A DNA stretch of 45,023 nucleotides from Bacteroidales bacterium. GTDB taxonomy: Bacteria > Bacteroidota > Bacteroidia > Bacteroidales > PWNQ01. Positions within the stretch are counted from its first letter, which is position 1; each line of letters opens with the position of its first letter. A program made the position numbers and the translations under genes. This document shows positions 24,506 through 36,743 of this stretch, in pieces. Under the pieces are notes generated by a model, which was not told the DNA's origin, ran no database searches, and worked only from the letters and a program-made list of their open reading frames with translations. The stretch lies in the NCBI GenBank assembly GCA_003557725.1, contig PWNQ01000205.1, forward strand, positions 1 through 45,023. Reading direction: 5' to 3'.

Positions 24506-25543
24506 ATGACGCCCCGGGAGATCGCACGTATTAACGAATTGTTGGACAAGTCACAAAAGGTGGTTTTAATATCGCATGCCAGTCCTGACGGCGATGCCAT
24601 CGGCTCTATTTTAGCCATGACTGCTTATTTACGGGGTCGTGGTTTGGACCCTCTGCCCATGCTTCCCGATGGGTTGCCTGCCTACTACAGCTGGATGCCT
24701 TACAGTTCTTTGGTGTGCGATGCGGACAGGGAGCCTGACCGGTGCCGCGAGGCGCTGGAGCAGGCAGAGCTGATCATCTGCTTCGACTTTAACGGGTTTA
24801 AACGCGTGGAAGGGCTTCAAGAACCCCTGGAAAAGGCTAAAGGGGTTAAAGTGCTTATTGACCACCACCCCAACCCCCAGAAGGGCTTTGACCATTTGAT
24901 GTCTCAGCCCAGTGCTTCCTCTGCGGCCGAACTGGTGTATTATTTTATCCATGCCCTGGCCGGAACAAATAAGGAGGTCATCGACCTGCCAATGGCTCAA
25001 GCCATATATGTGGGCATGATGACCGATACAGGATCATTCAATTATAACGCCAATAACCCTGAAATGTACAGTGTGATCCGCCACCTGGTTGAAATTGGCG
25101 TTGACCCGGAGCTGATGCATCAACGAATATACAATAACTTCTCTGTTAGACGAATGCGATTTCTCGGAAACGCCCTGCTCAATAAAATGGTGGTGCTGCC
25201 GGACCAGGCAGCGGCATATATCCCCCTTACATTAAGTGATCTACAACAGTTTAAACATCAAAAAGGCGATACGGAAGGACTGGTAAACTACCCACTGAGC
25301 ATTAAAGGCATTGTGTTCTCGGCTTTATTGACTGAAACCAGTGAGTATGTCAAGGCTTCCTTCCGTTCTATATCTCCCTTCGATGTGAACGTGTTTGCCA
25401 AAAATCACTTTAACGGGGGAGGACATATCCATGCCGCCGGAGGGAAAAGTTTTCAGCCTATGACAGAAACTATTCAGCTGTTTGAATCGTTAGTAAAAAG
25501 TAACTACTTAAAACAACTAAAGGATGCACAAAAAAGCATTTAA
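24506..25543 (+). CDS. DHH family phosphoesterase, NrnA-like (nanoRNase/pAp phosphatase)
   Basis: This 345-residue protein has the DHH/DHHA1 layout: SHASPDGDAIGS (residues 23-34), CFDFNG near 93, the signature DHHPNP near 121, and MTDTGSF near 170. The DHHA1 motif NGGGHIHAAGG is near 307. NrnA-type enzymes degrade 2-5-nucleotide RNA and dephosphorylate pAp in the cytosol using Mn2+. It is the first gene of an operon with three FKBP proteins, and its 3' end overlaps the next gene by 20 bases. The pairing of an NrnA-like gene with a GldI-like gene also occurs in other Bacteroidota. Confidence 0.92.
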   Translation: MTPREIARINELLDKSQKVVLISHASPDGDAIGSILAMTAYLRGRGLDPLPMLPDGLPAYYSWMPYSSLVCDADREPDRCREALEQAELIICFDFNGFKRVEGLQEPLEKAKGVKVLIDHHPNPQKGFDHLMSQPSASSAAELVYYFIHALAGTNKEVIDLPMAQAIYVGMMTDTGSFNYNANNPEMYSVIRHLVEIGVDPELMHQRIYNNFSVRRMRFLGNALLNKMVVLPDQAAAYIPLTLSDLQQFKHQKGDTEGLVNYPLSIKGIVFSALLTETSEYVKASFRSISPFDVNVFAKNHFNGGGHIHAAGGKSFQPMTETIQLFESLVKSNYLKQLKDAQKSI

Positions 25544-26096
25544 TACGATTACAGGAATCTGTACTTTGTTCCTTTGGGCTTTGTTTCTGGGGGGATGCAA
25601 CAACGACCCCCCGGTAATTGACGTCACCCCGGAAGCCAGAAACCAGTCATCCCCACACCAAACGCGCAAAGAAGGAATGGTGGTGGTGAATAAGGAGATC
25701 GTTCGACTGGAAGAACAGTTTATAGACAATTACATCCGCCGCCATAACCTTAACGTGACCCAGGCGGGCAACGGCATCCAGTATGATATTTATAAACCCA
25801 ACCCGGAGGGTAAGCAGGTAAACGATGGGGACCGCGTTTCCATGGTCTATTCCTCCAAACTGCTCACCGGAACCATGGTTGAAAGTAAAGATACCATGAA
25901 AACCCGGTCGTTCAATGTAAATGCCTCCCAACACATCCAGGGGCTTCATTTTGCAGCCATGCAAATGAGGGAAGGGGAAAAGGCGGTGTTTATTATTCCC
26001 TCCAAAATGGCCTATGGTGTTACCGGAAAGCGAGGACTGGTGCCCCATAATGCCGCCCTGGTATATGATATCCAATTAACCGCAGTGAACAAATAA
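25524..26096 (+). CDS. FKBP-type peptidyl-prolyl isomerase lipoprotein, GldI-like
   Basis: The 190-residue protein has a lipoprotein signal ending LGGC (Cys25) and then one FKBP-like domain (about 80-188): GDRVSMVYSSKLLTGTMVES, HIQGLHFAAMQMREGEKAVFIIP, MAYG and the closing strand VYDIQLTAV. The pocket tyrosine, tryptophan and FDSS positions are partly altered (Trp replaced in HIQGLH), as in GldI of gliding bacteria. GldI is a lipoprotein needed for gliding in Flavobacterium. Here the assignment rests on size, lipobox and location only, so I leave the symbol blank. It overlaps the upstream DHH gene by 20 bases, implying translational coupling. Confidence 0.85.
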   Translation: MHKKAFNTITGICTLFLWALFLGGCNNDPPVIDVTPEARNQSSPHQTRKEGMVVVNKEIVRLEEQFIDNYIRRHNLNVTQAGNGIQYDIYKPNPEGKQVNDGDRVSMVYSSKLLTGTMVESKDTMKTRSFNVNASQHIQGLHFAAMQMREGEKAVFIIPSKMAYGVTGKRGLVPHNAALVYDIQLTAVNK

Positions 26097-26131
26097 TCTT
26101 AACCCAATTAAATGACAAACGAATAATCACC

Positions 26132-27424
26132 ATGAAAGCCTACCAAATTGTTTTTCCTGCTTTTTTCCTGTTAATGGCATCTTTTTTTTCATGCCACCAG
26201 CCGCCGGAACCCTATCCGGGGTTCAAGTATGCCGAACCGGGAATCTATTATCAATTTCATCACCAGTCGGAAACCGGCATCCGCCCGGATACGGGAGACA
26301 TGTTGACCCTGAGCCTGCGGTGGTACTCGGAAGATACTACCATTTATTTTGATACCCATGACCTCCCCGGAGAGTTTTCCATTATTATGGAAGACCCCAG
26401 AACCTCCATGGACCTGTTTACCTGTTTGAAAATGATGCGTCTGGGTGACAGCGCCACCTTTATTTTACCCCCGGATTCCCTGCTGGGGTATGAGCTCCTG
26501 GAAGACACAGCTTCTATTATCTTGCTGGATGTGAAAATCCTTAATATTGTGCCCCGGGAAGAACACCAGGCCACATTGGAAAAAGAACGCCAGGAAAACA
26601 AAGACAGGGAACGCTCGGAAGTGGAAAAATTCCTGGAGGAGCATAACATCCGCTCCAAAACCACAAGTAGCGGGATACATATATTCAACCATGAGAAAAA
26701 GCCCGCTAACCCACCCGTTGAAGCGGGAAAGGTGGTCATGTTAACCTTTAAGGGCCGCTTGCTCAACGGAGACGTATTTCAGGAAACCTCCCCGGAATTT
26801 GCTTATGTAGTGGGAGAGTCACCCCATTATCCCATCGACTGGGATGAGGGCTTACTGGAAATGAGAAAAGGAGAAAAAGCCACCATGCTGCTGCCCTTCG
26901 ACCTGGCTTTGGGTAGTGAAGGGGCAGAAGGCCTTATCCCTCCCTATTCACCAATAATTATGGAAGTATGGATAAACGATGTGATCAGCAAGCAAGAGTA
27001 TCAGCAAATGCAGCTTTCACAGGGCAGGGATAGCCGGCAAAATGCAGAGAGGGAGATGAAAGAATACCTAAGAAAGCATGAGATCACCCAGGAGCCAACG
27101 GCCAGTGGGCTGGTTTATATCACCCAAAAAGCGGGCACCGGTCCCTATCCGCAGCCCGGAGAAACAGTACAGGTGCATTATACAGGCTATATGCTCAACG
27201 GAGAGGTGTTCGACAGCTCACACAACCGGGGAGTACCCCTGGAGGTGGTTATTGGTCAGGGAGGACTTATACAGGGATGGCTGGAAGCACTACCCATGAT
27301 GCGCCAGGGAGAAAAAGCCAAAGTGATCATCCCCTGGCAACTGGCCTATGGGAGGTCGGGAAAAGGAAATATACCCCCCTTCGCCAATCTGGTTTTTGAG
27401 ATGGAATTAATAAACATTATATAA
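26132..27424 (+). CDS. lipoprotein with three FKBP-like units
   Basis: The 430-residue lipoprotein (lipobox FFSC, Cys21) appears to contain three FKBP units. Unit 1 (about 30-140) keeps only the fold pattern (GDSATFILPPDSLLGYELLE). Unit 2 (about 165-290) has VVMLTFKGRLLNGDVFQ, IDWDEGLLEMRKGEKATMLLP and a closing strand but lacks the usual Phe-Asp pocket. Unit 3 (about 305-430) is canonical: VQVHYTGYMLNGEVFDSS, LIQGWLEALPMM and AYGRSGKGNIPPFANLVFEMEL. So probably one active isomerase plus two chaperone-like or binding units. It starts 35 bases after the GldI-like gene, in the same operon. Confidence 0.9.
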   Translation: MKAYQIVFPAFFLLMASFFSCHQPPEPYPGFKYAEPGIYYQFHHQSETGIRPDTGDMLTLSLRWYSEDTTIYFDTHDLPGEFSIIMEDPRTSMDLFTCLKMMRLGDSATFILPPDSLLGYELLEDTASIILLDVKILNIVPREEHQATLEKERQENKDRERSEVEKFLEEHNIRSKTTSSGIHIFNHEKKPANPPVEAGKVVMLTFKGRLLNGDVFQETSPEFAYVVGESPHYPIDWDEGLLEMRKGEKATMLLPFDLALGSEGAEGLIPPYSPIIMEVWINDVISKQEYQQMQLSQGRDSRQNAEREMKEYLRKHEITQEPTASGLVYITQKAGTGPYPQPGETVQVHYTGYMLNGEVFDSSHNRGVPLEVVIGQGGLIQGWLEALPMMRQGEKAKVIIPWQLAYGRSGKGNIPPFANLVFEMELINII

Positions 27425-27436
27425 ATCTTTATTCAT

Positions 27437-28606
27437 ATGATACGCAATCTGTTGTTCGTTGCAGTGACCCTTATTCTGCTTACCGTCACCGCCTGTTCCT
27501 CATTAAAAAACCCTAAAACAGGGAAGAGCTATAAAACCGATGAAGGGGTGGAGATCACCTTTTATGACCGTGGAGAAGGGCCCACAGCCCAAAACGGTGA
27601 TAAGCTGGAGATGCACTATGTGGGGCGCCTGGAAAATGACTCCATGTTCGGGTCCAGCTATAAACGAAACCAACCCCTGTCCTTTGAACTGGGCAATGAG
27701 GAAGTGATCCGTGGATGGGAGGTGGGCGCCCGGTACATGAAAGAAGGCGATAGCGTACTGATGGTTATTCCGCCGGAAATGGCCTACGGCGACACACGCA
27801 GAGGACAGATTCCCGCCAACTCTACCCTGTACTTTACCGTAAAACTGGAAAACCTGTGGGTAACCCCCAAGCCTTTTGATATTTCAAAAGCCGGAAAAAC
27901 AACCCTGGAGGACGGACTGGAAATATATACCGTGAAAAAAGGGAAAGGACCTGCCCTGCAAGACGGACATTTTGTTACCGTACACTATACCGGCTATCTG
28001 GAAAACGGTGAAGTATTTGACTCCTCCGTGGAGCGAGACGCCCCCATTGATATCCAACTGGGCAAGAATCAGGTGATCCAGGGATGGGAAAAAGCATTGA
28101 AAAACATGACTGTAGGCGAAAAAGCCCGCATAGTTATACCCCCCGAGCTGGCCTACGGACCCCAGGGAAGAGGACAGATACCCCCAAATGCAACCCTCAC
28201 CTTCGATGTGGAGATCGTGGATGCCAAAATGCCCCGAACAACAGAACCGTTCAACGTTGAAGGAAAAGACACCCTGTTTACACCATCCGGACTGGGGATT
28301 ATTAAACTGAACCAAACCGACCAGCCCAAAGCAGCACCCGGGAATGTGGTTACTGTACATTATACCGGATACCTGGAAGACGGAGAAGTGTTCGACTCCT
28401 CCATCGAAGCAGACCAGCCCATCTCATTCCCACTGGGACAAGGACAGGTGATCCCCGGGTGGGATGAAGGCTTGCAACATATGAGAATGGGCGAAAGAGC
28501 ACGACTGATAATCCCTTATCAACTGGGATATGGTGAAAACGGCGCCGGACCCATTCCCCCTAAAGCCAAACTTATCTTTGATGTGGAACTCATGGATATC
28601 AAATAA
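27437..28606 (+). CDS. lipoprotein with three FKBP domains
   Basis: The 389-residue lipoprotein (Cys20 at LTVTAC) holds three FKBP domains. The first (about 40-140) has MHYVGRLENDSMF, VIRGWEVGARYM and IPANSTLYFTVKLE. The second (about 155-265) has VTVHYTGYLENGEVFDSS, VIQGWEKALKNM and IPPNATLTFDVEIV. The third (about 280-389) has VTVHYTGYLEDGEVFDSS, VIPGWDEGLQHM and IPPKAKLIFDVELM. Domains two and three have the full pocket residues and should isomerise prolyl bonds in periplasmic proteins. It starts 12 bases after the previous gene, so the cluster is one operon. The next downstream feature is a repeat copy that can form a hairpin. Confidence 0.93.
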   Translation: MIRNLLFVAVTLILLTVTACSSLKNPKTGKSYKTDEGVEITFYDRGEGPTAQNGDKLEMHYVGRLENDSMFGSSYKRNQPLSFELGNEEVIRGWEVGARYMKEGDSVLMVIPPEMAYGDTRRGQIPANSTLYFTVKLENLWVTPKPFDISKAGKTTLEDGLEIYTVKKGKGPALQDGHFVTVHYTGYLENGEVFDSSVERDAPIDIQLGKNQVIQGWEKALKNMTVGEKARIVIPPELAYGPQGRGQIPPNATLTFDVEIVDAKMPRTTEPFNVEGKDTLFTPSGLGIIKLNQTDQPKAAPGNVVTVHYTGYLEDGEVFDSSIEADQPISFPLGQGQVIPGWDEGLQHMRMGERARLIIPYQLGYGENGAGPIPPKAKLIFDVELMDIK

Positions 28607-28708: not shown

Positions 28709-28744
28709 CAACTGAAGAACACCTTTCTAATATATACCTCGCTC

Positions 28745-28816
28745 TATACTGCCTTGATTGGACTTCACTGATGAACGCTTTATACTGCCTTGATTGGACT
28801 TCACTGCTGAACGCTT
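28745..28816. repeat. 36-bp tandem duplication, two units
   Basis: Units 28745-28780 and 28781-28816 are identical except for one base (GATGAAC against GCTGAAC). Each contains TGCCTTGATTGGACTTCACT. A third unit seems to begin (TATG) and then diverges. Confidence 0.9.
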
Positions 28817-29026: not shown

Positions 29027-29653
29027 ATGAAAACAAGTAACCGGTTTGCCCTTCTTTTTCTTCTGGTTTTTTCCCTTTCCGGCAGTCTCCGTGCCCAGTT
29101 TCCCGTACATTTTAAGGTAGATCAGTCTCCCAGGCTGGAAGCCCATGCGGGCGATGATATACATGTACAGCCGGGCACCACGGTAACCCTGGGTGGCAGC
29201 CCCTCAGCCACCGGTGGCAGTCCACCCTATACTTACCTGTGGACACCCCCGCACAACCTTGACGACACCAGTGTGGCTTACCCGTCACTGACCGTGGATA
29301 CCATTACACAATATACCTTACATGTTACCGACACCCAACACTGTACTGCTTACGACTCCCTTTGGGTGTCCATAGAAACCAGTATCCCTGCACACAACCG
29401 AAGCCAACAGCCCTTTTCCGTATATCCCAACCCACTGCATGGGGAGCAGTTGACCATCGAAGCCGCCAAAGGAACACCCGGATTTTCCGTAACCCTGCTA
29501 ACCGCCAAAGGAAAAGAAATAGCACAACATGCTTTTCCCGGGGAAGGCACCCACCGTATCCCTGTAAATAGAACCAAAAACCCTCCGGGAGGTATATATC
29601 TATTAAAGATCCACCAGGAAAAAACCTACGTATTTAAGATAATAGCACATTAA
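29027..29653 (+). CDS. T9SS type A sorting-domain protein with an Ig/PKD-like domain
   Basis: The 208-residue protein has a signal peptide ending LRAQ (residues 1-24). A short beta-sandwich domain follows (about 38-115; AGDDIHVQPGTTVTLGG, PPYTYLWTPP, TQYTLHVTD), like the SprB/PKD-type repeats of Bacteroidota adhesins. A type IX C-terminal sorting domain closes it (about 130-208; FSVYPNPLHGEQLTIEA through GGIYLLKIHQEKTYVFKI). It should cross the outer membrane through the T9SS and be attached or released at the surface. No T9SS machinery genes are in the window. It is first of a run of exported proteins and 20 bases before the next gene. Confidence 0.9.
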   Translation: MKTSNRFALLFLLVFSLSGSLRAQFPVHFKVDQSPRLEAHAGDDIHVQPGTTVTLGGSPSATGGSPPYTYLWTPPHNLDDTSVAYPSLTVDTITQYTLHVTDTQHCTAYDSLWVSIETSIPAHNRSQQPFSVYPNPLHGEQLTIEAAKGTPGFSVTLLTAKGKEIAQHAFPGEGTHRIPVNRTKNPPGGIYLLKIHQEKTYVFKIIAH

Positions 29654-29673
29654 TTAATAAAATCCATAGGGTT

Positions 29674-30612
29674 ATGTTCAAAATATTATCCCCATTAATC
29701 ATTATATTTTTGGCACTGGCCATGCCAGTATCCCTTAGCGGCCAGGTGATAAAGGTATATTCCGGCGAGCCGGCCATGCTCATTGCTCAGGGTTACAGCC
29801 ATGGGCATATCCAATGGCAGCAGTCGTCCGACCAGAATACCTGGACGGATATTCCGGGAGTAACCGGCGATTCAGCTTTGGTTGACGCCGACTCGGTAGT
29901 TACCTGGTACCGTGGTAAGATCACCTCAGGAACCTGCGCTACCTTATATACCGACACCCATGCCATTAAGCTCTTTGAATGTGGAGATACCATTATGGAT
30001 TACCGGGATGGTCGCAAGTACCCTACGGTACAAATCGGAAGTCAGTGCTGGATGGGTAAAAACCTGGCGGTGGGGCAAATGATCCCCGGAGATCAGGATA
30101 TGGAAGACAACGGAGTCATTGAACGCTATTGTTACGACGATGACACACTTAACTGTCAGCAATACGGTGCCTTATACCAATGGGATGAAATGATGCAATA
30201 CGACACCACCGAAGGGGTGCAGGGAATTTGCCCCACCGGATGGTATATCCCCAGCGACCAGGACTATATCCAGCTGGAGTTGGAGTTGGGAATGAGCATA
30301 TCCCTGGCCAACCTGGTGAACACCTGGCGCGGTCACAACCAGGGTACACAGCTAAGCCCATCGGGAAACACCGGATTCAATGCCAATTATACCGGTATAC
30401 GCTTCTCAAGTGGCGTATTTTACAACATGGGAACCTTTGAATACCTGTATACATCCACCCAAAATAGCTCCAACCCGGTAGCAGCCTGGAGAAGATGCCT
30501 GGATGTTAACCAGTTCTCCATCGGACGATATAATAACACCCATAAAAATACCGGCGGATCGGTGCGCTGCATTAAAAAAGAAAATGCAAAGGACGCAAAG
30601 AGTGTACGGTAA
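29674..30612 (+). CDS. FISUMP-domain exported protein
   Basis: The 312-residue protein has a signal peptide (FLALAMPVSLSGQ), an Ig-like N-terminal domain (about 25-105; IQWQQSSDQNTWTDIPG), and a Fibrobacter succinogenes major paralogous domain (about 108-308). That domain is marked by YRDGRKYPTVQIGSQCWMGKNL, YGALYQWDEMM, GICPTGWYIPSDQDY and the closing GGSVRCIKK. The domain has a C-type-lectin-like fold and occurs on surface proteins of Bacteroidota and Fibrobacteres, with unknown function. Paired cysteines in the domain suggest periplasmic or extracellular folding. There is no T9SS sorting domain, so secretion beyond the periplasm is uncertain. Confidence 0.88.
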   Translation: MFKILSPLIIIFLALAMPVSLSGQVIKVYSGEPAMLIAQGYSHGHIQWQQSSDQNTWTDIPGVTGDSALVDADSVVTWYRGKITSGTCATLYTDTHAIKLFECGDTIMDYRDGRKYPTVQIGSQCWMGKNLAVGQMIPGDQDMEDNGVIERYCYDDDTLNCQQYGALYQWDEMMQYDTTEGVQGICPTGWYIPSDQDYIQLELELGMSISLANLVNTWRGHNQGTQLSPSGNTGFNANYTGIRFSSGVFYNMGTFEYLYTSTQNSSNPVAAWRRCLDVNQFSIGRYNNTHKNTGGSVRCIKKENAKDAKSVR

Positions 30613-30621
30613 TAATGAAAG

Positions 30622-30729
30622 ATGAAACGCCCATGCCGAAAATTATTCGACACACAGGGGAATGATTATTTCCTTACCGGAAGCTCCCGCACGCGCCCCT
30701 CTAACTCCCCTAAAGGGGAGGACCGGGCC
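30622..30729 (+). repeat. ~100-bp dispersed repeat, family 2, copy 2
   Basis: It contains ATGAAACGCCCATGCCGAAA, TCGACACACAGGGG, GATTATTTCCTTACCGGAA, and CCCCTCTAACTCCCCTAAAG followed by GGGAGGACCGGGCC. CTCCCCTAAAGGGGAG within it is a small perfect palindrome. It begins 10 bases after the FISUMP gene stop. Confidence 0.9.
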
Positions 30730-30751
30730 AACCCGCGGCAGTTTGCGGTGA

Positions 30752-30806
30752 CATATTATTCGTGCATTCGTGAGAACGAACAACGAAAAAAACATATAAA
30801 CACATG
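30752..30806 (+). repeat. shared leader segment ending in a start codon, copy A
   Basis: CATATTATTCGTGCATTCGT at 30752 and ATAAACACATGAAA at about 30796 both recur in the same order at 34466-34508. Here the ATG in the shared segment is the start of the lipoprotein gene at 30804. Confidence 0.75.
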
Positions 30807-31163
30807 AAACATTTGAGCATTCAAGTTTGGATAATATTGGCTTTGGCAGCCCTTATAGCCGCTATGGCCCTGGGTTGCGACAAGGATAATGGCCCGGCCA
30901 AAGACTCGGAATTACGTAGCTTCTCCCACCTGGAGGCGGAGATGGACAGTATGTATATCGGGGAGATCACCCAAATTCGGGCCATTTATGATGGAGACAA
31001 TGTGACCTTTGAGTGGGAAGCCTCCTCTGGAGATATCCTGGGAAGCGGCCATACTGTGGAGTATCTAGCAGCCTCCTGCACCGAACCAGAAGCCACAATT
31101 ACCTGCAAAGCCATTGCCAAAAACCAGTCCAAAACCCGCAGCATCAGCATTTATGTTTATTAA
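30804..31163 (+). CDS. small lipoprotein with Ig-like domain
   Basis: The 119-residue protein has a hydrophobic signal and lipobox MALGC (Cys25). One small beta-rich domain follows (about 40-119), with DGDNVTFEWEASSGDILGSG and ATITCKAIAKNQSKTRSISIYV, resembling bacterial Ig/PKD-like folds. I do not recognise a family. Its last codons overlap the following gene by 11 bases, so the two are probably translated together; a lipoprotein partner for the barrel protein is a reasonable guess. Confidence 0.78.
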   Translation: MKHLSIQVWIILALAALIAAMALGCDKDNGPAKDSELRSFSHLEAEMDSMYIGEITQIRAIYDGDNVTFEWEASSGDILGSGHTVEYLAASCTEPEATITCKAIAKNQSKTRSISIYVY

Positions 31164-32121
31164 CAAAAAAACCATAAGCCTTCTTCCCCTGCTGCTAATG
31201 CTTGTGTTTAACCAGCAAAAAGGCAAAGCACAGTGTTTTGCCACCCCGGGAAACCCGGTCGGGGGGGCGGAAAATATTGGGGTGATGATGAAAAACCACT
31301 TGCGTGTGCAATCTTCATTCCGCTATCATAAGGCCTCAAACTATTATAAGGGCGACAGCCCCTACCTTGGCCACAAGCGCACACTGGATGAAGCTTACTT
31401 TAGCTATGGCGGCATACTGGCCGCCTATGGCATTACCAACCGGATCACCGTGGAACTGGATGCCGGATACTTCTTCAATAAAACACAAGAATATCTGAAA
31501 TGGGACGGAACCCTAACCGGCTATGGCCCCTCCAACATGACCGCCATGGTTAAATATGCGCTGTATCAGGATATGCTTAATCGCATAGAATTTACCCTGG
31601 GAGCAGGAGGGAAGATACCCCTGTCCCGCACATACCAAAGAGTGGACGGAGTGGTGCTGCCCATCGACCTGCAGCCCTCCACAGCATCTTACGGCCTGAG
31701 AGCACAGTCATTCCTGGTTAAAGAAAATTCAATAGGCTCATGGCGACTATTCTGGATCAACCGGTATGAAAAAAACTTTGAAAACCCCTACAACTTCCTT
31801 TTTGGGGACCACTTTTCCAGCGCAATATTTTACAGTAAACATACCCACCTGGAAGCATCCCAACGATTTAAACACTGGACCCTGATCCTTCAGGCACGAT
31901 ATGAATTTAACGATCAAAATATCCGCAACGGACAATTGGTGGAGGCCTCCGGTGGGCACCTGGCCATTATTGCACCCCAGGTCAACTGCAGCATTGACCA
32001 AACCTGGAACTTATCACTGCTCTTTGAAAAAGTGATCTACCGTTATTATAACCATGTGCAATTGGGCGGAAACTACTCGGTGGGTGTGCAACTGAGCAGA
32101 GATTTACCTATTAACCAATAA
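31153..32121 (+). CDS. putative outer-membrane beta-barrel protein
   Basis: I choose the ATG at 31153 (322 residues, MFINKKTISLLPLLLMLVFN with cleavage after KAQ), because it gives a signal peptide. An in-frame ATG at 31114 would add 13 hydrophilic residues that spoil it. The mature part alternates polar and hydrophobic residues in many short strands ending in aromatic residues (RITVELDAGYFFNK, RIEFTLGAGGKIPLS, TLILQARYEFND, LGGNYSVGVQLS). A short plug-free barrel of perhaps 12 strands fits this pattern. No enzymatic motif is seen. It overlaps the upstream lipoprotein gene and is followed within 18 bases by the SUMF1 protein. Confidence 0.72.
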   Translation: MFINKKTISLLPLLLMLVFNQQKGKAQCFATPGNPVGGAENIGVMMKNHLRVQSSFRYHKASNYYKGDSPYLGHKRTLDEAYFSYGGILAAYGITNRITVELDAGYFFNKTQEYLKWDGTLTGYGPSNMTAMVKYALYQDMLNRIEFTLGAGGKIPLSRTYQRVDGVVLPIDLQPSTASYGLRAQSFLVKENSIGSWRLFWINRYEKNFENPYNFLFGDHFSSAIFYSKHTHLEASQRFKHWTLILQARYEFNDQNIRNGQLVEASGGHLAIIAPQVNCSIDQTWNLSLLFEKVIYRYYNHVQLGGNYSVGVQLSRDLPINQ

Positions 32122-32139
32122 AATATATTTACATTATCC

Positions 32140-33645
32140 ATGAAGACCTTTACCCTTCGCTTTTTGTCAGCCGGCCTGATATTCTTTTTGTTGGCCTTAC
32201 CCGTTCTTAAAGCCAGTAATATAATGGCAGATTCGGTTATGTTGGTGCATAAAGACACCTCCAGTCAGACCATTCAGGTACGTTTCAACTTATCCTGGGA
32301 GCATTCCTGGCGGGCCGATACCGCACCGGGAAATCACGATGCGGCTTGGGTATTCATCAAATACTCCCAGGATGGTGGCCTCACCTGGCACCATGCTTCT
32401 CTGGAACCCCAGGGCCATGGCTCCGGCTCCGGCACCAACGCCTGGGTACAGGCAGGGGTGATGGATGAACGCCAGCCGTTTCAGCCCGACAGCAACCCCG
32501 TGACCGGCGCATTCTTTTACCGGAGTGACCCCGGATACGGACTGTTTACCATCAGCAGAGCACACCTGCTATGGAACTATGGAGCAGACGGACTGACCCA
32601 TACAGATACAGTACTCGTGCGGGCCTTTGCCATTGAAATGGTCTATGTGCCAACAGGGCCATTCTATCTGGGCAGCGGAGCATCTGAAAGCGGTGAGTTT
32701 TTTCCCTACCCCCATAACGACTCGGTATACCTTGTAGACAGTGAAGACCCCATCATAGTAGGAGACTCTTCCGGACAGCTTTATTATGAATACAGCCCCC
32801 ATTCCGGCGACCAGAGTGGCGTGATTCACAAACATTTTCCCAAAGGATACCAGGGGTACTACGTGATGAAGTACAACATTACCCAGCAGCAGTATGTAGA
32901 CTTTTTAAACACCATTACCAATGCTCAGGCACAGAACCGCAAGAGCCAGATCACCGGATTCCGGCATGCCATTACCGACACCACCGGGATATTTACCACT
33001 GCCCATCCTTATGTGGCCTGTAATTTTTTGAGCTGGCCCGATGGGTCAGCCTATGTGCATTGGGCAGGATTGCGGCCCATGACCGAGACCGAATATGAAA
33101 AAGCCTGCCGTGGCCCCCTGTATCCAGTAGCCGAAGAGTTTGCGTGGGGCAGCACACACTTTGTGCAGGCCAAGGGCATAGCCAACCCAGGAACAGCCCA
33201 GGAGAAACCCACCAATGCCCAAAGCAATGCCGTAGCCGGGTTTGACCAAAATGTCCAGGGACCCATGCGCGTGGGAGCCTTTGCCACAGACAGCTCGGGA
33301 AGAACAGAGGCCGGAGCATCCTATTATGGCATTATGGAACTGAGCGGAAACGTAACTGAAAAGGCCGTAACCATCGGAAACAGCCAGGGAAGAGCCTTTG
33401 ACGGACTGCATGGAAACGGAACCCTTACCAGTTGCGGACATGCTAACGTAAGCTCCTGGCCAGGATATCACAACGGAACGGTGAGCCAGGCCGCAGGCAG
33501 CGGACTCAGAGGGGGAGACTGGATCAACTGTGCCATCACTATGAGAGTATCCAACCGGGGAAGAGCAGCATATGGAACCTCCAACAGAAGCATGGAATAC
33601 GGCTTCAGAGGAGCAAGAACAAAACCCCAAACACCCAAAGAATAA
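32140..33645 (+). CDS. SUMF1/EgtB/PvdO-fold exported protein
   Basis: The 501-residue protein has a signal peptide (LIFFLLALPVLKAS). A beta-rich N-terminal domain covers about 28-165 (VRFNLSWEHSWRAD, AWVFIKYSQDGGLTWHHA), and the rest is a SUMF1-like domain (about 165-498). Markers are FAIEMVYVPTGPFYLGSG, YYVMKYNITQQQYVDFLNTI, GLRPMTETEYEKACRGP, MELSGNVTEKAVT and the end RGGDWINCAITMRVSNRGRA. The cysteine pair of formylglycine-generating enzymes is not present in that last block, so sulfatase activation is unlikely. Related Bacteroidota proteins include the gliding/T9SS proteins GldJ and GldK. A structural or ligand-binding role at the surface is more likely. Confidence 0.87.
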   Translation: MKTFTLRFLSAGLIFFLLALPVLKASNIMADSVMLVHKDTSSQTIQVRFNLSWEHSWRADTAPGNHDAAWVFIKYSQDGGLTWHHASLEPQGHGSGSGTNAWVQAGVMDERQPFQPDSNPVTGAFFYRSDPGYGLFTISRAHLLWNYGADGLTHTDTVLVRAFAIEMVYVPTGPFYLGSGASESGEFFPYPHNDSVYLVDSEDPIIVGDSSGQLYYEYSPHSGDQSGVIHKHFPKGYQGYYVMKYNITQQQYVDFLNTITNAQAQNRKSQITGFRHAITDTTGIFTTAHPYVACNFLSWPDGSAYVHWAGLRPMTETEYEKACRGPLYPVAEEFAWGSTHFVQAKGIANPGTAQEKPTNAQSNAVAGFDQNVQGPMRVGAFATDSSGRTEAGASYYGIMELSGNVTEKAVTIGNSQGRAFDGLHGNGTLTSCGHANVSSWPGYHNGTVSQAAGSGLRGGDWINCAITMRVSNRGRAAYGTSNRSMEYGFRGARTKPQTPKE

Positions 33646-33742
33646 ACCATGAGGACAGTATAATAATACAAAGTTTTATACCCGCAGAAAAGCTGCTTTG
33701 CCCCACCCTAAAAGACACCTGGTTTTCAGCAACCCTATTTTA

Positions 33743-33799
33743 AGAGGCCGGGATAAAAAGCCGCTGAAAATCAAAAGAAACCGTTTTAAACCGGCCTAA
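33743..33799 (+). repeat. 74-bp element, internally deleted copy 4
   Basis: It has the left arm AGAGGCCGGGATAAAAAG, the core CCGCTGAAAATCAAAAG and a right arm TTTTAAACCGGCCT. The AGGCCGG/CCGGCCT ends pair perfectly. About 17 bases of the usual left loop are missing. It lies 33 bases before the small T9SS gene. Confidence 0.75.
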
Positions 33800-33818
33800 A
33801 CCATTAATACCTTAATTG

Positions 33819-33856
33819 TAAAATCTATATCATGAATTATAAAACCTATATCATGA
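33819..33856 (+). repeat. 21-bp-offset duplication across the start codon
   Basis: TAAAATCTATATCATGA at 33819-33835 recurs as TAAAACCTATATCATGA at 33840-33856, one mismatch in 17 bases. The offset of 21 bases keeps the reading frame and creates two in-frame ATGs. Confidence 0.85.
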
Positions 33857-34251
33857 CCATAACAAAAATAATAACCACCGTGCTAATAACCATGACCACC
33901 TTGTCAGCCTTTGCCCAATATACCGGCGGACAGGGAAGGGGAGACCATATGGCTCAGTCTCTGCCGCTGATCATGAGCGTAGAAAAGCATGAACAGCCCC
34001 AGGCCGGAATCATTACACTGTATCCCGTTCCCGCCAGACAAATGTTAAACATCAAACTGAATCCGGAAACAGAAGCCGAAAAGGTGATCAAAATACAAAT
34101 GTTTGACCCATGGGGAAAAGAGGTAATAACCTATCAAAGCCATGTAAAACAAATCCCCGTCCAAAACCTGGCCTCAGGCGTCTATTTCCTACGTTTTACC
34201 TTTACATCAGGACCACCACAAATATTTAAGATTATGGTTGCAAAGACCTAG
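33832..34251 (+). CDS. minimal T9SS type A sorting-domain protein
   Basis: The 139-residue protein starts with a signal peptide (KIITTVLITMTTLSAFAQ). The Met at residue 8 (33853) is an equally good start because of the duplication across the start. Most of the mature protein is the sorting domain: YPVPARQMLNIKLNPETEAE to GVYFLRFTFTSG and FKIMVAK. Only about 30 residues lie between the signal peptide and the sorting domain (QYTGGQGRGDHMAQSLPL), too little for an ordinary cargo domain. It could be a decayed larger substrate or a genuine mini-substrate. A family-2 repeat copy lies just downstream. Confidence 0.83.
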   Translation: MNYKTYIMTITKIITTVLITMTTLSAFAQYTGGQGRGDHMAQSLPLIMSVEKHEQPQAGIITLYPVPARQMLNIKLNPETEAEKVIKIQMFDPWGKEVITYQSHVKQIPVQNLASGVYFLRFTFTSGPPQIFKIMVAKT

Positions 34252-34309: not shown

Positions 34310-34392
34310 TCGACACACAGGGGGATGATTATTTCCTTACCGGAAAGCTCCCGCGCGCGCCCCTCTGACTCCCCTAAAGGGGAGGACCGGGC
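34310..34392 (+). repeat. ~100-bp dispersed repeat, family 2, copy 3
   Basis: It contains TCGACACACAGGGG, GATTATTTCCTTACCGGAAA, CTCCCGCGCGCGCCCCTCTG, ACTCCCCTAAAGGGGAGG and ACCGGGCC. The left part is interrupted: CCCATGCC occurs at 34269-34276 but is then separated from the rest by about 34 unrelated bases. Confidence 0.88.
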
Positions 34393-34465
34393 CACCGCAC
34401 GCGCCCCTGTCCAAACCCTTCGGGGCCTGGACCAACAACGAACAAAATTCTAAACAGATAAAACC

Positions 34466-34526
34466 CCATATTATTCGTGCATTCGTGGCAAAAAATAAAC
34501 ACATGAAAAGAGCTAAAGGGCAGTAG
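34466..34526 (+). repeat. shared leader segment, copy B, without an intact gene
   Basis: CATATTATTCGTGCATTCGT at 34466 and ATAAACACATGAAA near 34495 match 30752-30808. Here the ATG at 34503 opens a frame of only seven codons (MKRAKGQ) before a stop. This looks like a gene start whose gene has been lost. Confidence 0.6.
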
Positions 34527-34556: not shown

Positions 34557-36743
34557 CTACACCTCCAGGTTAGACATTGCACTTGTGATCTCAAAGGGGT
34601 AGTCCGGGTATTCATAAATAGGCATTATCTCTTCCGTCTCGCCTATTGAATAGCCAAAAACACCGGAATATTCTTCAGGATTTTCCCCCATATCCGTCAT
34701 TTGGCGGATATACTCGTCTATGGATTTAGATTCCACGATAGTTACCCGTCCCATCTGGTCGATAATGGGGCTGTGTCTTCGGGTATGATCGTGGTCAAAC
34801 AGCAGTACCCTTCGGCCGTCGTTGGTTATGCCGATGGTTCGGAAGGTATTGCTTTTTCCCACTCCCGGCATATTGAGCACATTGCGGTCGGTAGCCAAAA
34901 AGGGCAGGCCGTAAGTTTCACGGAGCCTGTTGATATTTTCTTTCATCTTTTCCGCCTCCTGAGGAAATGAGCGTATGGTTTTATGTTCTTTGGCATCAAT
35001 TTCTCCCAGCACTTTTTCTTCGGCACGTTCCTGGATAGACCGTGCATTATTGGCGAAGTTATGTTTATTTTCCAGGTATCCTTTCACGGTAAAGGTATAA
35101 TAGGGCAGTACGCCCAGGTCGTTGAGCACTTTTCTCAGTTTGGCCGTATGCCCTTTCCGGGAGGCTGCGGCAGTAAACACCTGCTGGTTGGTGATGGTCC
35201 ATCCTGCCTGGCGCAGCTTGTTCATGCCGTGGGCGGCTTCCGGGGTGATCTCCATAGCCGTTTCAAAGTGGGTCTGGATCACGAATTGCCTGATCCCCGC
35301 TTCCCGGGAGGCTCTTTCCTTAAAATCCCGAAGCAGCGTCACCAGATGATCGGTAATCCGTTGGGGAAGATAAACCGGCAGGCGTGTACCCAGGCGCACT
35401 CTCAATATCTCGGCCTTTTTTTCGCCAACAGGTAAGCGTTTATTGTTTTCTTTTTTCCGTTTAGCCATTTCATAGACGGCATCCAGGATACGTTTTAGCG
35501 ACTTATCAGCGCTCATGAGAGCATCTCCACCGGTGATTAAAATATCCCTGAGCTGGGTATCTTCTTCAAAGTATTTTAGCAATCGCTCCAGCTTCTGGGG
35601 CCAGCTCTCGGTGGGCTTCAACTGCTCCAGGTTGAAATTAAGCTTGCCACTCTGAAAGTCATACATGCGCTGACAACTGGTGCACAGCCCCCCACAGGCA
35701 CGACCCATGGAGTCGGGGATCATAATGGCCACCTCCGGATAACGCCGGTGAATGTTCCCTCCTTCCGGAAGATGCCAGCCGGCAGCATTGGGCTCACCGG
35801 GCTTAACAATGTCCTCCTTCTCCCAGGCATTGATATGACCAAACTGGTTGATCAGCTCCCTGGAATAGAGGATATAATCACGGATGGCCTGGTCAGAGGC
35901 AATATAGCCGCCAATATTGGTGGTGCAAAGCAGGCTAAGGTAATAAGGGTTAACGAAAAATGGAATGCCAGCCTTTTTGGCATCACGCAATACCTGCATG
36001 GTCTCATAGGACAAGGAGTAGCCCAGCATCTCATTGATAAGTTCCGGATCACGAAAAGCGAAGCGTAGATGAAATAAACGGTCGTGCCACCATTGGCGGG
36101 CAATGCTTAAGCGGTCCTCCCGGGACAGACCCGCTTCTTTAAAATAAAACTTCCGGTCGGTAATTTCCCCATTATCCATTTTATCCAAAATAATACCAAG
36201 GATCCGGTCACGGTTCATTTCCCGGTGGCGAACCACCTGCTCATCCAGTCCCGACGGGTGGCGATCCATCCACTCTTCCACCTTTTCAAGGGTAGGAAGA
36301 CTATATTCATAGGAGGCCTCCAGCTGGCTGAACAGTTGGGCCATATCACGGAAAAAATCGGGATTGCCTCCTCCAGTACCACGTGAAAGACCCAGGTATA
36401 ATGTGTTAAACGGCTCATTAATAAATGTTTCTCCTCCCATGTTCAGGTCTTCAACCTCATTACCTGTATGATCAATATAATCCAATACACGAATAGCCGC
36501 CATATCTTGCCAACGCAGTTTGTCATATGCCTTTTTACCTCTCTTACGCTCTTTGTAATAATCCACCCCGCCCTCACCAGACTCAAGGATACTATAGGCC
36601 CAACGCGATAACTGATTCTCAAAATCTTTATACTCATTACTCTGCTCAAGGATCTGTGCTATCCGGGGGTGGTTGGACAGCATTTCCTGAACCATCTTCT
36701 GTGAAATCCCATTGATGCTAATGGACTCAAAATTACGACTCAT
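34557..36743 (-). CDS. KamA family radical SAM protein (lysine 2,3-aminomutase-like), long form
   Basis: The 728-residue protein has the radical SAM cluster motif CGGLCTSC (Cys350, Cys354, Cys357) and further KamA features such as LITGGDALMS and RLGTRLPVYLPQRIT. The C-terminal part includes TNDGRRVLLFDHDHTRRHSP. Classic lysine 2,3-aminomutases are about 415 residues, so the roughly 300-residue helical N-terminal extension is notable. The PLP lysine of KamA is not obvious to me by eye, so the aminomutase reaction is not assured. Relatives of this length occur in Bacteroidota with unknown substrate. It is a single gene, convergent with the exported cluster. Confidence 0.85.
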   Translation of the reverse strand: MSRNFESISINGISQKMVQEMLSNHPRIAQILEQSNEYKDFENQLSRWAYSILESGEGGVDYYKERKRGKKAYDKLRWQDMAAIRVLDYIDHTGNEVEDLNMGGETFINEPFNTLYLGLSRGTGGGNPDFFRDMAQLFSQLEASYEYSLPTLEKVEEWMDRHPSGLDEQVVRHREMNRDRILGIILDKMDNGEITDRKFYFKEAGLSREDRLSIARQWWHDRLFHLRFAFRDPELINEMLGYSLSYETMQVLRDAKKAGIPFFVNPYYLSLLCTTNIGGYIASDQAIRDYILYSRELINQFGHINAWEKEDIVKPGEPNAAGWHLPEGGNIHRRYPEVAIMIPDSMGRACGGLCTSCQRMYDFQSGKLNFNLEQLKPTESWPQKLERLLKYFEEDTQLRDILITGGDALMSADKSLKRILDAVYEMAKRKKENNKRLPVGEKKAEILRVRLGTRLPVYLPQRITDHLVTLLRDFKERASREAGIRQFVIQTHFETAMEITPEAAHGMNKLRQAGWTITNQQVFTAAASRKGHTAKLRKVLNDLGVLPYYTFTVKGYLENKHNFANNARSIQERAEEKVLGEIDAKEHKTIRSFPQEAEKMKENINRLRETYGLPFLATDRNVLNMPGVGKSNTFRTIGITNDGRRVLLFDHDHTRRHSPIIDQMGRVTIVESKSIDEYIRQMTDMGENPEEYSGVFGYSIGETEEIMPIYEYPDYPFEITSAMSNLEV

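Follow-up and report, generated by a model that had tools for sequence, protein, structure and literature searches.

Two recurring gene modules of exported proteins side by side in a Bacteroidales genome

Genes and repeats at the locus

In this study, we analysed a cluster of genes for exported proteins in a 45,023-nucleotide stretch of DNA from a Bacteroidales bacterium (GCA_003557725.1, contig PWNQ01000205.1), the whole of which is called the window here. A preliminary description of the sequence had listed six consecutive plus-strand genes with export signals, and all six open reading frames were confirmed where expected, between 29027 and 34251 on the + strand, each with a signal peptide (judged by eye) and, in the case of LIP, an LGC lipobox (Table 1). 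The cluster is two separate recurring modules lying side by side, T9a-FIS-LIP-BAR (29027-32121) and SUM-T9b (32140-34251). The start of BAR was set at the ATG at 31153 instead of the TTG at 31114; the LIP and BAR genes overlap by 11 bases, and 18 bp separate BAR from SUM. In a promoter and terminator scan of the cluster, sites were not above shuffled counts, and a crude scan of its + strand turned up nothing terminator-like. Import of the cluster, judged by composition, was dropped as an explanation since GC content is flat across the region, and no plasmid relatives were found. Short tandem duplications lie upstream of T9a (28740-28811, 36 nt) and at the start of T9b (33814-33855, 21 nt).

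Table 1. Features of the cluster and its repeats, in positions of the window
Feature	Position	Strand	Module	Description	Match or model
T9a	29027..29653	+	1	Exported; PKD/Ig-like domain and T9SS type A tail	TIGR04183; weak PKD matches
FIS	29674..30612	+	1	Exported; FISUMP (Fib_succ_major) domain	PF09603 1.2e-29; TIGR02145 2e-31
Interspersed repeat copy between FIS and LIP	30640..30803	no strand		Outside function	
LIP	30804..31163	+	1	Lipoprotein; one Ig-like domain, two invariant cysteines besides the lipobox	
BAR	31153..32121	+	1	Predicted 12-stranded outer-membrane channel; cysteine-bearing N-terminal tail	AlphaFold2 pLDDT 89.2
SUM	32140..33645	+	2	Exported FGE/SUMF1-fold protein with N-terminal domain, without the FGE cysteine pair	PF03781 5.1e-14
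T9b	33832..34251	+	2	Short, exported; Gly-rich start (QYTGGQGRGD) and T9SS type A tail	TIGR04183 1.1e-8
Second repeat copy, 3' of T9b	34310..34500 (about)	no strand		Outside function	

FIS scores far over the cut-offs of both of its models (110 bits versus 41.65 for TIGR02145; 104.4 versus 33.9 for PF09603), matches no solved structure by sequence, and carries a signal peptide and no T9SS tail. FISUMP is a multigene family in this organism, with 19 further matching stretches in its own genome. T9a and T9b both pass the TIGR04183 cut-off of 23 bits, at 26.7 and 35 bits, and are thus predicted to be exported by the T9SS; for T9a (E 4.1e-6) the corresponding Pfam T9SS model was narrowly missed (26.6 versus 27). 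SUM matches the FGE-sulfatase model PF03781 with 53 bits against a cut-off of 23.3 and has weak FGE matches among solved structures by sequence. Across 17 SUM-family rows, no FGE-type cysteine pair is conserved from residue 415 on, in the C-terminal part where we take the FGE active-site pair to lie, and some of the rows hold a single cysteine or none in this part. The FISUMP domain, the SUMF1 fold lacking its cysteines and the two T9SS tails that had been read from the sequence are borne out by Pfam and NCBIfam matches and by these rows.

Diversity-generating retroelements are known to target both FISUMP and FGE domains (PMC4159848). Retroelement diversification of FIS or SUM was rejected: neither gene's 3' end has a second copy in the genome, and no such repeat occurs between 26 and 37 kb. 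The genome being a draft, this exclusion is not final.

The two repeat copies are related to each other and belong to a family with 58 matching stretches in the organism's own genome (fragments included), many of them at contig ends, and this high-copy repeat probably breaks the assembly. On one contig (C197), the internal unit of the family recurs in tandem about every 46 bases. A role for the repeats as a component of the system was ruled out, with copies interspersed genome-wide; since the family is found at dozens of genome sites, the repeats are not specific to the cluster.

Upstream of the cluster, at 24506-28606, a DHH/NrnA-like gene precedes a run of three exported FKBP-type genes, of which the second and third are multi-FKBP; this row is kept in a same-genus genome. 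Downstream, 34557-36743 encodes a 728 aa KamA-family radical SAM protein that scores under the TIGR00238 cut-off, has long extra N- and C-terminal parts and shares 68% identity with its same-genus counterpart. A search for the empty site in same-genus genomes was uninformative, since in one of them (G001) the KamA-like gene is on a different contig from the FKBP genes and their neighbours are others.

Recurrence of the two modules in relatives

BAR is present in 34 of the 149 genomes searched (its own counted) and absent from both other genomes of the genus. An earlier search of contigs with a single barrel sequence confirmed nothing; rerun as a profile search with an alignment of the family (A2), it yielded 51 named barrel loci, 50 of which, with the window, made up the set in which gene order was counted. 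This set divides into 43 group A loci, defined by a barrel tail reading QCF or QCL or by the presence of FIS, and eight loci with QCC barrels. LIP lies upstream of BAR in 43/43 group A loci (window included), so the lipoprotein does belong with the barrel, as had been suggested. FIS is found in 42/43, a count partly built into the definition of the group; when group A is defined by the motif alone, FIS is present in 40/41. The sole group A locus without FIS is L074. None of the eight QCC barrels has FIS, and six have LIP, with no LIP detected at the other two. The LIP and BAR genes overlap in 28/43 group A loci, and the gap between FIS and LIP has a median of 12 bp in relatives versus 191 bp in the window, the extra space there being occupied by the interspersed repeat; neighbours and gaps in relatives rest on mechanical gene calls and carry some error. 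Since it is kept in relatives, the FIS-LIP-BAR order is beyond chance, and that these genes form a unit conserved far outside the genus is well supported. Cultured organisms that have FIS-LIP-BAR include Mariniphaga sediminis SY21 and Tangfeifania diversioriginum DSM 27063. A literature search that covered few subscription papers or preprints found no description of this module.

Two further kinds of gene accompany the unit. A DUF1573 gene lies upstream of FIS or after BAR in 11/43 group A loci versus 0/33 other barrel loci. Thirty genes were listed as lying directly upstream of FIS, 17 of which were chosen by eye and aligned with T9a of the window, the remaining 13 (six DUF1573-type, two FIS and five unrelated) being left out, also by eye; 16 of the 18 aligned T9a-type genes carry a TIGR04183 tail. 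Conservation of gene order, which the preliminary description had proposed to examine, thus holds for FIS-LIP-BAR, which a small T9SS gene or a DUF1573 gene often accompanies, and fails for SUM and T9b.

SUM relatives occur in 30/149 genomes. No BAR, LIP or FIS match was found in 18 SUM loci, and the window is the only barrel locus examined that has a SUM-like gene. In 11 of the 18, an exported protein with a T9b-like Gly-rich start is adjacent or one gene off (judged by eye). Pairs of this type were noted at 32140-34251 and at L156, L158, L159, L162, L163, L166, L167, L169, L170, L172 and L173; the Gly-rich motif of the partners directly follows the signal peptide, and several have T9SS-like ends. 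We read SUM-T9b as a putative FGE-fold scaffold with a T9SS partner, independent of module 1. SUM more probably acts as a scaffold than as an enzyme, since the FGE cysteine pair is missing, as it is in PorK (PMC12421860). SUM is like the repurposed FGE folds of PorK, GldK and GldJ treated there, in having an FGE-type domain without the cysteine pair in a T9SS context; it differs from them in having no lipobox and an N-terminal domain of its own, and in having no known ring partner.

These occurrences bear on the proposal that all six genes form one surface-attachment system with LIP and BAR as its anchor. The common strand, the short gap between BAR and SUM, the export of every product and the lack of a + strand terminator-like site in the crude scan are consistent with it, yet SUM and T9b turn up in other places with no module 1 beside them, and SUM is missing from every other barrel locus examined. 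Genes lying in unrelated places in relatives had been named beforehand as evidence against a single system, and this is what was found for SUM and T9b. We therefore regard a single six-gene system as very improbable. The recent assembly suggested from the repeats is plausible, with SUM, among the barrel loci examined, joined to one in the window only, and with a genome-wide repeat in the FIS-LIP gap.

Barrel fold, tail cysteines and two barrel lineages

BAR has no Pfam or NCBIfam match and no match to solved structures by sequence. Its AlphaFold2 model (mean pLDDT 89.2) has strands from residue 49 to 319; counted by hand, with the last DSSP stretch (285-319) taken as two strands, there are 12. 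The top structural match is 4rl8, a channel of the COG4313 family (Z 26.3, rmsd 2.4 over 256 residues), followed by FapF (Z 23.5), with autotransporter barrels lower at ~20. Judged by its model, BAR resembles channels of the COG4313/FapF type and not the known carriers of adhesins. It shares with Pput2725 (4rl8; COG4313/Phenol_MetA_deg, PF13557) the 12 strands, a similar length and an N-terminal segment before strand 1, but identity is 7% and the window BAR has no PF13557 match (none at E 0.1). That model matches 7/40 BAR relatives, at best with 6.7e-6, and in a search of 41 genomes (its own and relatives) it found matches in seven and none in the organism's own genome. BAR also differs from COG4313 channels in its tail cysteine and its constant lipoprotein and FISUMP partners. 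FapF, the Pseudomonas amyloid secretion pore, is likewise a 12-stranded barrel, but BAR has no coiled-coil domain, no fap-type neighbours were seen, and its partners are a FISUMP protein and an Ig lipoprotein.

The N-terminal tail of BAR carries a cysteine. Q27 and C28 are invariant in 20/20 rows of an alignment picked from 23 loci with no Q-C filter (A1); in a larger alignment (A4, 39 of the 51 named loci) the same invariance is circular, since its rows were selected for length and a Q-C start. The tail (residues 28-47) is modelled at a pLDDT of about 40-60, and a plug in the BAR lumen is consequently suggested by analogy only. In the COG4313 structure, the lumen is blocked by about 14 residues at the N-terminus (PMC4493636), and FapF is a plugged 12-stranded barrel that is gated by its N-terminal plug and exports polypeptides (PMC5557850). 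LIP has no Pfam match and nothing convincing in NCBIfam; weak Ig-like matches among solved structures by sequence agree with the Ig-like fold of its AlphaFold2 model (pLDDT 91.2), and C25, C92 and C101 are invariant in 40 aligned rows.

In a tree of 69 barrel rows, each of at least 280 residues, the rows with FIS group together in a single clade (support 100/98); it contains 38 barrels, 37 of which have FIS, L074 being the exception. For neighbourhoods, 87 loci were considered and 11 dropped as near-duplicates or for want of a called barrel; the 76 kept exclude the window, and seven of them lack the Q-C start (fragments or distant rows). FIS occurs in 0/33 of the sister LIP-BAR loci outside group A. 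An ars-type neighbourhood, meaning at least two of ArsR, ArsC-like, ACR3-like, CcdA-like and permease genes within 9 kb, surrounds 11/33 barrel loci outside group A versus 0/43 inside, and the ars-type barrel loci fall in one clade of 12. At L042, L046-L049, L051, L052 and L054-L057, QCC-tailed LIP-BAR pairs were seen inside Bacteroidales ars/CcdA/thioredoxin clusters, with no FISUMP gene. These FISUMP-less QCC pairs are candidates for the outer-membrane components of systems that deal with arsenic or thiol redox. CcdA and thioredoxin genes are known within ars operons (PMC2963123); the accessible part of that account does not name a lipoprotein-barrel pair.

The cysteines of the two proteins vary together. 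The 66 loci scored, one of them the window, all have LIP next to BAR. In the FIS group, the LIP loop holds a single cysteine in 42/42 and the barrel reads QCF or QCL in 41/42; in the ars group, LIP carries an additional cysteine in 11/11 and the barrel reads QCC in 11/11. Eight of the other 13 loci pair a QCC barrel with a LIP that lacks the second cysteine, mostly having Cys-His. As few evolutionary events underlie this co-pattern, it is suggestive only. A precedent comes from the same phylum, where the barrels SprF and PorG have periplasmic-tail cysteines disulfide-bonded to the lipoprotein GldK (PMC12635249). The resemblance lies in an outer-membrane barrel whose periplasmic tail varies in cysteine number and a lipoprotein with conserved cysteines. 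The differences are that the cysteine tail is N-terminal in BAR and C-terminal in SprF and PorG, that LIP is a small Ig domain and GldK an FGE fold, and that the LIP-BAR bond is putative. With an N-terminal tail and an Ig-like lipoprotein, BAR and LIP would at most work like SprF/PorG-GldK. The co-pattern and this precedent together favour docking of LIP on the BAR tail; alternatively, Cys92 and Cys101 of LIP may bond to each other.

A putative channel unit and its rivals

Our tentative reading, which we put a little short of an even chance, is that module 1 is an outer-membrane channel unit in which LIP docks on the BAR tail and FIS and T9a are exported partners, with module 2 separate. We infer a co-transcribed unit. 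BAR would be a 12-stranded channel of COG4313/FapF fold, located in the outer membrane and passing some cargo, with its N-terminal tail and invariant cysteine on the periplasmic side. LIP would be its constant Ig-fold partner, whose own invariant cysteines probably contact the BAR tail, through either a disulfide or a common soft-metal/thiol site that may hold or gate the channel. The lectin-like FIS and the T9SS-secreted T9a would be exported as partners of the pair and probably sit on the cell surface. Given that sister pairs lie in ars clusters and that each of their two proteins has an extra cysteine, the older LIP-BAR pair probably had a role in metalloid or thiol handling, and the FIS lineage would be a derived re-use of it. 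SUM-T9b would be a separate FGE-fold scaffold and T9SS partner that was placed just downstream of module 1.

The likeness to FapF raises another explanation, that BAR is a dedicated secretion pore that exports FIS to the surface, with LIP a periplasmic or surface chaperone for FIS. FapF is the second-best fold match and a polypeptide exporter, and FIS, with a signal peptide and no T9SS tail, is encoded beside BAR at nearly every group A locus (42/43). The absence of FIS from all 33 sister LIP-BAR loci argues, however, that the pair works without it; the periplasmic coiled coil of FapF is missing, and the fold match is stronger to the COG4313 channel, which is of small-molecule type. We consider a dedicated pore for FIS unlikely. 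A different role, in which module 1 takes up or exports metal for anaerobic metal-cluster systems such as those of orange-protein type, is suggested by the neighbours of some group A loci: 11/43 group A loci versus 0/33 others have at least two of NifX-like, MinD-like (with 4Fe-4S), DUF134, CGGC and DUF5320 genes no more than 9 kb away (Fisher p 0.0017, with rows that are not independent), and no SUM locus matches any neighbourhood seed (0/18). The NifX-like class comprised two seeds, and the families were checked with Pfam. These genes were seen beside the modules of L031, L033, L064, L075, L077, L079, L081, L087, L097, L099 and L107, in varying order and orientation. Orange-protein systems of Desulfovibrio include Nitro_FeMo-Co and P-loop NTPase proteins (PMC6345978), and the wider set would be grouped with systems of that type. 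On the tree, the neighbourhood label is spread over separate places, changing 8 times for 11 rows, but it is also somewhat clustered, with 8/500 shuffles as low, so that shared neighbourhood ancestry may account for it; and 32/43 group A loci, as well as the window, have no two such families nearby, though some of the contigs are short. None of these genes lies near the cluster in the window. A role in supplying metal-cluster systems is, in our estimate, distinctly unlikely.

Carried further, our reading of module 1 as a channel unit would make LIP-BAR an undescribed channel class, controlled by thiols or soft metals through the plug cysteine and the LIP cysteines, which arose beside arsenic and thiol-redox operons and was re-purposed once, with the loss of one cysteine per partner, into a FISUMP-equipped surface system that spread through Bacteroidales. 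We offer this extended scenario as speculation with a low chance of holding in full.

Altogether, the one-system reading of the six genes is corrected to a FIS-LIP-BAR unit with SUM-T9b as an independent neighbour. In doing so, a barrel family missed by Pfam and NCBIfam gains a fixed partner set, and one lineage of FISUMP, a large family for which we found no role in the literature searched, gains a constant genetic context. The cysteines suggest that the tail of a channel is linked to a lipoprotein in a way that resembles the recent SprF/PorG-GldK case, and the sister pairs name outer-membrane candidates for the arsenic clusters of Bacteroidales.
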